A stretch of DNA of 44,606 bases from Bacilli bacterium (GTDB lineage Bacteria > Bacillota_I > Bacilli_A > RF39 > UBA660). The notes beneath the pieces are model-generated. The model worked only from the letters and a program-made list of their open reading frames with translations, was not told the origin of the DNA and ran no database searches. Shown piece after piece: positions 6,052-7,832 of this stretch (position 1 is the first letter of the stretch; each line of letters opens with the position of its first letter). The stretch lies in assembly GCA_017433415.1 (NCBI GenBank), contig JAFRHI010000012.1:1-44606 (forward strand), written 5' to 3'. A program made the position numbers and the translations under genes.

Positions 6052-7734
6052 ATGAGTAGATATACTTGGGGAATGTATGGAGAACGGAGCGTTTTTAAAT
6101 ATGCTGATTGTATAAAAGGTGTTAGATATACAGTATTTGATTGGGCAACCCATAAAACCTATGAATTCCCGGAAGTTATTATTAAAGGTGATAAAGAAAT
6201 ATTTTTGATTCCACAAAAACTCCAAAATGCAGATTTTTTTGAATGGTTATGTGAAACTTCACCTGATGGTTGGCGCATAGTCCCACAAGAGTTTAAAAAA
6301 GAAAAATCCTCTAACGAACCTGTAGACAATATAGGTAATGATGATTTAATAAAACAGCATTATAGTAAAGCATCACTAGCTAAAAAGAAAGAGTTAATTA
6401 GAAATGGTCACATGAGAGGCCTATTAAAGACAGAAGACTTAAAAGAACTTATAAATTATCATATGCTCCTAGATAGAAAAAGAGTTGACTATGATTTTTG
6501 GGAAAATATTTCAAAAGATATAGTTGATGAAAAAACTGCTAAAAAAATGTTTTCATGTAATAGTGAATATATTCGTTATATACCAGAAGAGTATTTGACT
6601 GATGAAATGGTAAAAACTGCTCTTACAGAAGGGAAAAAAATAATTGGTACTTTACCACAAGTTTTCTTAACAAAAGAAAATATTGAACTTGCTCTAATAA
6701 ATGATCCTAAAGAAGTATTTAAATTACCAGAAGAAATTAGGAATAAATATCTTAGCTTTGCTGTGAGTTTAAGAGGTCAACTTTTAGCAAACATCCCTCG
6801 TGAGCAAAAAACAGCAGAATTATGTAGACTTGCTTTTTCTAATAATTGCTTATCTTTTAGGTATATACCACATGAATTTAAAACTATCGATATGTGTATT
6901 AGAGCTTTAGCTATTAATCCAAGGTTAATTAAATATGTTCCAATAACATTTCTAAATGAAGAATTTTTAAATACTTTAGAAGATTTAGAAATTAATATTG
7001 ATGAGAAAGACAAATTTTACGTTAAAGAAGCACTTCGCATTAATGAAACACTTGATATTCCAACAACTGAAGAGAATGATATAGATAGTTATAATGTAAA
7101 TGTTCCACCAGAAATTGCTAATATTTATATTAGAGATTTATATGAGTTTTTTTCAAGCAATGCGCAAACTATGCTAGAAAAAGCTGGAATTCATAAATTA
7201 GGTGAATTGCTTAATTTGTCAGAAAGATCAGATTTTGCTAGATATTTTAGTGATAAAAAAGCATTTGGAGAAGTACTTGGAACAGTAAAAATATTACGTT
7301 GTAAATTCTTAGGAGAAGATCCACTAATTGATATAAATAGTGAAGAGTTAGAGCCGCTAGAATTATACCAAAAGCTAGGTTTTTCAACACGTGTAATTAA
7401 TGCACTACGTAGAACTCTTTATTGTACAAACGCTAAGACCTTTTTTGAACGAATTACATCTTCAGATATTGAAAGTAAACTAAAAGGAATAAGAAATCTT
7501 GGTTCAGGTGGCGCAAAAGAAGTTATAATAAAAACAAATATTGTTATAGATTATTATAAAAATAAAGATAATGTTAAGACTGATGATGATACTCAAAAGG
7601 AAATTCAAGAATTAAATGAGGAATTACAAGAATTAATTGCTATGAGAAATAGATATGATCAATTGATTAAAGGAACAATTGAAAAAATCCAAGAAAAACT
7701 AGTAAATAACTCAAGAGGGGGTAATACTAAATGA
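6052..7734 (+). CDS. Unknown helical-repeat protein with RNA-polymerase-alpha-CTD-like segment
   Basis: A 560-residue protein with no signal peptide or membrane segment, so probably cytoplasmic. Residues 1-90 form a Trp/Tyr-rich domain I do not recognise. About residues 165-320 hold degenerate repeats of roughly 30-35 residues with an I/LP-x-E/Q-x(3)-T-x-E pattern followed by a helix, resembling DUF4116-type repeats. Residues about 430-500 (LGFSTRVINALRRTL, then GIRNLGSGGAKEVI) resemble the C-terminal domain of RNA polymerase alpha, where LSVRSYNCL and RNLGRKS occupy matching positions; that domain binds DNA and activators. A second helix-hairpin-helix-like stretch (LEKAGIHKLGELLNL) sits before it. 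The end is a Glu/Gln-rich coiled coil. The stop overlaps the start of a 33-residue microprotein. Function unknown; nucleic-acid binding is an inference. Confidence 0.8.
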   Translation: MSRYTWGMYGERSVFKYADCIKGVRYTVFDWATHKTYEFPEVIIKGDKEIFLIPQKLQNADFFEWLCETSPDGWRIVPQEFKKEKSSNEPVDNIGNDDLIKQHYSKASLAKKKELIRNGHMRGLLKTEDLKELINYHMLLDRKRVDYDFWENISKDIVDEKTAKKMFSCNSEYIRYIPEEYLTDEMVKTALTEGKKIIGTLPQVFLTKENIELALINDPKEVFKLPEEIRNKYLSFAVSLRGQLLANIPREQKTAELCRLAFSNNCLSFRYIPHEFKTIDMCIRALAINPRLIKYVPITFLNEEFLNTLEDLEINIDEKDKFYVKEALRINETLDIPTTEENDIDSYNVNVPPEIANIYIRDLYEFFSSNAQTMLEKAGIHKLGELLNLSERSDFARYFSDKKAFGEVLGTVKILRCKFLGEDPLIDINSEELEPLELYQKLGFSTRVINALRRTLYCTNAKTFFERITSSDIESKLKGIRNLGSGGAKEVIIKTNIVIDYYKNKDNVKTDDDTQKEIQELNEELQELIAMRNRYDQLIKGTIEKIQEKLVNNSRGGNTK

Positions 7735-7832
7735 ATGAAATAGAAAACTTAAAAAAACAAATAGAAGAAGTAAAAGAAGAAATTAAAATAAAAGAAGATA
7801 TCTTAAATAATTTAATAGAAGAATTAAGTTAA
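7731..7832 (+). CDS. 33-residue coiled-coil microprotein
   Basis: A short reading frame whose ATG overlaps the TGA of the preceding gene (ATGA). A strong ribosome site, GAGGGGGT at 7714-7721, is correctly spaced. The product (starts [14 protein letters not shown], ends LIEELS) is almost entirely Glu, Lys, Ile and Leu with heptad-like spacing of Ile/Leu, so it should form one amphipathic helix. The gene ends exactly at a terminator. The preceding protein also ends in a coiled coil, so pairing of the two helices is an attractive inference. Overlap, ribosome site and position before the terminator argue that it is a real gene. Confidence 0.65.

Follow-up and report, generated by a model that had tools for sequence, protein, structure and literature searches.

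In an uncultured gut bacterium, two overlapping genes encode a 560-residue protein with a tandem pair of domains resembling the C-terminal domain of the RNA polymerase alpha subunit (alphaCTD), set behind DUF4116-type helical repeats, and a microprotein of 33 residues. Profile comparisons indicate that the resemblance is homology in both domains, and conservation among relatives argues that the microprotein frame is a real gene. The pair lies in a stretch of 44,606 nucleotides, referred to here as the window. We tentatively read it as a rare accessory two-protein unit, in which the main protein would be an adaptor to DNA or the transcription apparatus and would pair, through its coiled coil, with the co-translated microprotein.

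Gene layout and expression signals

Both reading frames, and the ATGA overlap between them, were found where a first-pass annotation of the DNA had placed them (Table 1). That annotation also put DUF4116-like repeats before the alphaCTD-like part, in agreement with the Pfam scan, where the PF13475 (DUF4116) match reached 34.8 bits against a cut-off of 24.9. The repeats are predicted to be helical, with pLDDT up to 94, and the family has been modelled as an alpha-solenoid (PMC8078820); the open-access literature that mentions DUF4116 gives no function for it. The full-length model is confident across most of the repeats and both helix-hairpin-helix (HhH) domains and poor over the first ~95 residues. 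The N-terminal region (residues 1–85) is common to the G102, G043, G163, G248 and G384 proteins.

The promoter-like site is well placed in the gap 5' of the main gene, although such sites are no more numerous in the region than in shuffled sequence. The hairpin at the end of the upstream gene falls under the threshold of the pattern scanner because its stem is low in GC. The promoter-like site and the low-GC hairpins on either side count towards reading the pair as a two-protein unit. The Shine-Dalgarno-like GAGGGGG doubles as Gly-Gly codons close to where the main protein ends, and several relatives likewise have a Gly-rich C-terminus. We infer that the ribosome-binding site of the microprotein may impose itself on the main frame and so produce this Gly-rich end.

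Table 1 Features of the two-gene unit and its surroundings, in window coordinates.
Feature	Position	Strand	Basis
Putative sigma-A-like promoter, TTGACT-N17-TAGAAT, TG before the -10	5998..6026	+	sequence pattern
Terminator-like hairpin and T-run, end of upstream gene	5968..5993	+	fold -7.5 kcal/mol, z -2.8
Main gene (560 aa), with beta-type N-terminal region, DUF4116 solenoid, tandem alphaCTD-like domains and coiled coil	6052..7734	+	ORF, Pfam, relatives
N-terminal region, residues 1–85, predicted strands	6052..6306	+	translations, matches, low-confidence model
DUF4116-type helical repeats, residues ~97–333	6340..7050	+	PF13475 34.8 bits; structure prediction
alphaCTD-like HhH domain 1, residues ~352–417, DNA-contact residues lost	7105..7302	+	hhalign, structure alignment, relative L067
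alphaCTD-like HhH domain 2, residues ~431–504, with R447 and N482	7342..7563	+	hhalign, PF03118, alignment
C-terminal coiled coil, residues 512–555	7585..7716	+	one long helix in full-length and module models
Shine-Dalgarno-like GAGGGGG, 9 nt 5' of microprotein start	7715..7721	+	sequence
Microprotein, 33 aa, coiled coil; start overlaps main stop as ATGA	7731..7832	+	ORF, 8/13 loci, HMM
Terminator-like hairpin and T-run, end of two-gene unit	7831..7854	+	fold -8.8 kcal/mol, z -2.8

Tandem alphaCTD-like domains

The first-pass annotation had noticed one alphaCTD-like pattern, at residues 430–500, the part of the main protein that includes LGFSTRVINALRR (residues 442–454) and RNLGSGGAKE (residues 481–490). 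This pattern was borne out by hhalign and by relatives that pass the PF03118 cut-off; what the annotation missed is that there are two such domains, the first at residues ~352–417. Against PF03118 the main protein scored 22.6 bits (E 8.5e-5; cut-off 23.8) over two stretches in the Pfam scan, the better of which, residues 440–492, lies in domain 2. Relatives exceed the cut-off through domain 2 (G185, 48.1 bits; G248, 29.5 bits) or with their best stretch in domain 1 (G396, locus L067, 27.1 bits). When compared by hhalign to 28 RpoA C-terminal domains from the host's bacterial family, domain 1 (half ~358–423) gave 95.9% and domain 2 (~431–506) gave 96.7%, while the HhH region of the neighbouring LigA, used as a control, gave 0.8–1.9%. 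A module profile built from the first six members only was also run blind over genomes. The rpoA C-terminus was its next-best match in ~60% of the family's genomes, with E of about 1e-5 to 1e-3; these matches cover profile columns ~90–152 (domain 2) and, in two genomes, columns 21–78 (domain 1). The Pfam scan of the main protein found no RNA polymerase alpha N-terminal domain, and a normal rpoA CTD is encoded separately in the host genome (C19, 98.9 bits).

Structure prediction bears differently on the two domains. The module modelled on its own reached a pLDDT of 89.6 and a pTM of 0.70, and the HhH at residues 430–500, whose absence was to have counted against the first-pass annotation, was confidently predicted, with domain 2 helices at 446–454, 461–468, 473–478 and 484–505. 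Domain 1 aligned best to the B. subtilis alphaCTD 1z3e_B (Z 8.8, rmsd 2.0, 63 of 67 residues; VIA-align), and alphaCTDs made up almost all of the 16 highest-ranking rows. The rows spanning residues 431–504, that is domain 2, were RAD51 N-terminal and SAM domains with Z about 6. Single-domain Z values of such size are modest, and the assignment of domain 2 is therefore carried by the sequence profiles. Foldseek returned no significant match for the module and only generic helical-repeat matches (E > 0.04) for the whole protein, so the domain assignment rests on the profile-profile and VIA-align results.

In the complex of E. coli RNAP with rrnBP1, alphaCTD inserts R265 and N294 into the minor groove and contacts phosphates through K291/K298 (PMC7822876). 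By alignment, R447 and N482 of domain 2 are the equivalents of R265 and N294. Both are kept in domain 2 of the main protein, G163, G102, G043 and G248, and all but one of the 11 aligned members have Arg or Lys at the 265 position of this domain. Domain 1 carries no basic residue at the 265 position and lacks the RNxG motif. DNA binding is thus plausible for domain 2, with which R447 and N482 are consistent, and unlikely for domain 1. Some positions count against an adaptor: neither the K298 nor the N268 equivalent is constant among the members (domain 2 of the main protein has Gly for the former), and the position of the Tyr that contacts Spx, Y263 of the B. subtilis alphaCTD (PMC2801614), is Ile.

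The same residues bear on whether the module touches DNA or polymerase at all. HhH and SAM-like folds also mediate protein-protein contacts, which tells against an adaptor, and the HhH pair could instead be a SAM/RAD51-NTD-like oligomerisation module that serves a structural assembly. The want of any DNA-contact residue in domain 1, the RAD51 and SAM matches of domain 2 and the length of the coiled coil would all suit such a scaffold. We nevertheless consider it unlikely, as the sequence profiles point specifically to alphaCTD and the R265/N294 pair is kept in domain 2 of the proteins named above. Pfam scans of the main protein and its relatives indicated no relation to the RAD51 or SAM families.

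The overlapping microprotein

Of 13 loci, the window's own included, 8 have an open reading frame of 33–46 codons whose start lies no more than 14 nt from the main stop (G000, G102, G248, G114, G228, G469, L068 and L069). The offsets are -14, -8, -4 or -1, and the frame either overlaps or abuts the main gene. The shuffled downstream sequence yields such a frame with a probability of 0.04–0.2 per locus, and in the close pair G469/L069 the microprotein shows few changes and a dN/dS of ~1. Both results would fit an untranslated frame left open by chance in AT-rich intergenic sequence, a reading that we hold to be highly improbable given the other evidence. Recurrence in 8 of 13 loci is more than the per-locus chance would give. 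The microproteins align without gaps over ~30 residues for most members, and in a leave-one-out HMM test each outscored all 1000 shuffled versions of its own sequence. Two diverged pairs gave dN/dS values of 0.44 and 0.25, and an SD-like sequence lies upstream. We conclude from this conservation that the 33-codon frame is a real gene. The first-pass annotation had asked whether the two genes stay together in relatives, and the eight loci with the frame, together with dN/dS below 1 in both diverged pairs, indicate that they often do and go against the loss of the frame and of coding selection that was to have refuted it.

The association is not constant. In G163 and G396 the microprotein survives as remnants that have lost the start or carry a frameshift, and G043, G185 and G384 each have the main gene with no microprotein ORF; an intact microprotein is thus missing from 5 of 13 loci, which counts against the adaptor reading. 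Programmed frameshifting into the microprotein was considered and rejected: the frame is -1 in some relatives (offsets -4/-1) and +1 in others (-14/-8), and since it differs in this way, coupled re-initiation fits better.

The a/d positions of the microprotein heptads are I4, L7, I11, V14, I18, L25, L28 and L32, with one K at 21. The microprotein and the coiled coil of the main protein are of similar length, about five heptads. Copies without DUF4116 (G114, G228 and L069) keep the tandem domain, the coiled coil and the microprotein, and the partner of the microprotein is therefore likely to be the coiled coil of the module. The layout described by the first-pass annotation thus held in tying the microprotein to the main protein, but the tie is to the C-terminal module and not to the DUF4116 part.

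An overlapping two-gene unit with a tiny partner also brings to mind a toxin-antitoxin-like pair, in which the main protein would poison transcription by mimicking alphaCTD and the microprotein would neutralise it by capping the coiled coil. In G469 the main gene is broken and the microprotein intact, and in G163 and G396 both are decayed, as might be expected of such a pair. The partner is, however, not constant, in view of the main genes without a microprotein in G043, G185 and G384, and the gene order and the large solenoid would be unusual. We judge this explanation improbable. Whatever its role, the microprotein belongs to a family with signs of selection whose size would hide such genes from ordinary annotation.

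Distribution, evolution and proposed function

Strong relatives are present in 9 of 386 genomes of the host's bacterial family, its own included (~2%); a second genome draw added one of these, and the class and phylum draws yielded none beyond the family. The named relative loci are MAGs of uncultured Tenericutes/Bacilli, two of them from goat rectum and from a sample named Lapin. In congeners, pcrA is followed by the NTP transferase gene and then ligA, often as immediate neighbours. The window has ~4.2 kb extra between the NTP transferase gene and ligA, which includes the two-gene unit, and the unit is absent from the ligA region of all 26 other congeners in which this region was read. The extra 4.2 kb also encodes two predicted membrane proteins (3717–5969) without a Pfam family, one with a weak MARVEL match under the cut-off. 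They have no match in the ligA-region loci of the congeners, and the slot before ligA therefore looks variable. The relatives share no obvious neighbours, apart from G114 and G228, two species of one genus, whose loci (L060 and L064) hold a standalone module and microprotein in a similar neighbourhood, so that vertical retention is possible there.

The main gene is fast-evolving, with dN/dS of 0.64 and 0.74 (Nei-Gojobori; saturation possible). Premature stops interrupt it at 3 of 13 loci: L002 (G163), L045/L067 (G396) and L046 (G469). Recoding of TGA/TAG was set aside, as the stops sit where members vary and neighbouring genes read normally; decay of these copies is the likelier explanation. 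In G396 (L067, 5065–6930), a protein that by eye resembles the DUF262/GmrSD type has the tandem module directly downstream. Locus L024 (G143) encodes two adjacent, apparently paralogous proteins of 250 and 227 aa (667–1419 and 1492–2175) with a match to alphaCTD of the domain 1 kind (E 1.1e-5 for one of them) and no accompanying microprotein, hinting at a wider clade family of free-standing alphaCTD-like proteins.

The scatter, fast evolution and broken copies suit an accessory, perhaps conflict-related gene. In a conflict or defence system, the tandem alphaCTD would be a decoy that draws in factors of phages or mobile elements directed against RNAP alpha, under the control of the solenoid and the microprotein. 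The patchy presence without a shared neighbourhood, the high dN/dS, the frequent broken copies and the insertion in a variable slot before ligA are all in line with this, but patchiness equally fits other accessory genes and the window has no defence-island context. PADLOC, NCBIfam and PHROGs searches gave nothing meaningful, PADLOC returning no defence match. Nor were relatives of the module found in phage, viral-contig or plasmid collections, the plasmid matches being to DUF4116 repeats only. A defence decoy is accordingly quite unlikely in our estimate.

We return to the adaptor, our preferred though tentative reading. In bacteria, activators and UP elements dock chiefly on alphaCTD. Domain 2, with the minor-groove residues of alphaCTD, would dock on A/T-rich, UP-element-like DNA, and domain 1, which lacks them, would be a protein-binding or packing domain. 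The microprotein, produced in step by coupled translation, would zip onto the C-terminal coiled coil and set the oligomeric state, with the DUF4116 solenoid as an optional platform for docking or sensing. The whole unit might then work as an adaptor or regulator of transcription, mimicking the grip of the RNAP alpha tail on promoter DNA and partners. A broader claim, which we regard as doubtful though possible, is that a domesticated RNAP alpha tail, in the form of a free-standing tandem module with a co-translated coiled-coil microprotein, represents a new class of transcription adaptor or RNAP decoy. If true, such an accessory gene would represent a novel means of intercepting or redirecting transcription.

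In the open-access literature we found no description of an alphaCTD/DUF4116 fusion or of tandem free-standing alphaCTDs, nor of a system with this layout of main protein and microprotein. Among known proteins, those with DUF4116 (PF13475) share with the main protein the repeat profile and the predicted helical solenoid; plasmid DUF4116 proteins differ from it, being matched in the repeats only and not in the tandem alphaCTD. RAD51 N-terminal and SAM-type helical domains are like domain 2 at the level of the fold, but by sequence profile alphaCTD fits better. A further likeness is to the alphaCTD of RpoA (PF03118, e.g. B. subtilis 1z3e_B), with which the main protein shares the profile (by profile-profile comparison), the fold of domain 1, the HhH motif and the R265/N294 equivalents of domain 2. 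Unlike RpoA, it carries the CTD-like domain in tandem, without the alpha N-terminal domain, and fused to DUF4116 repeats and a coiled coil.
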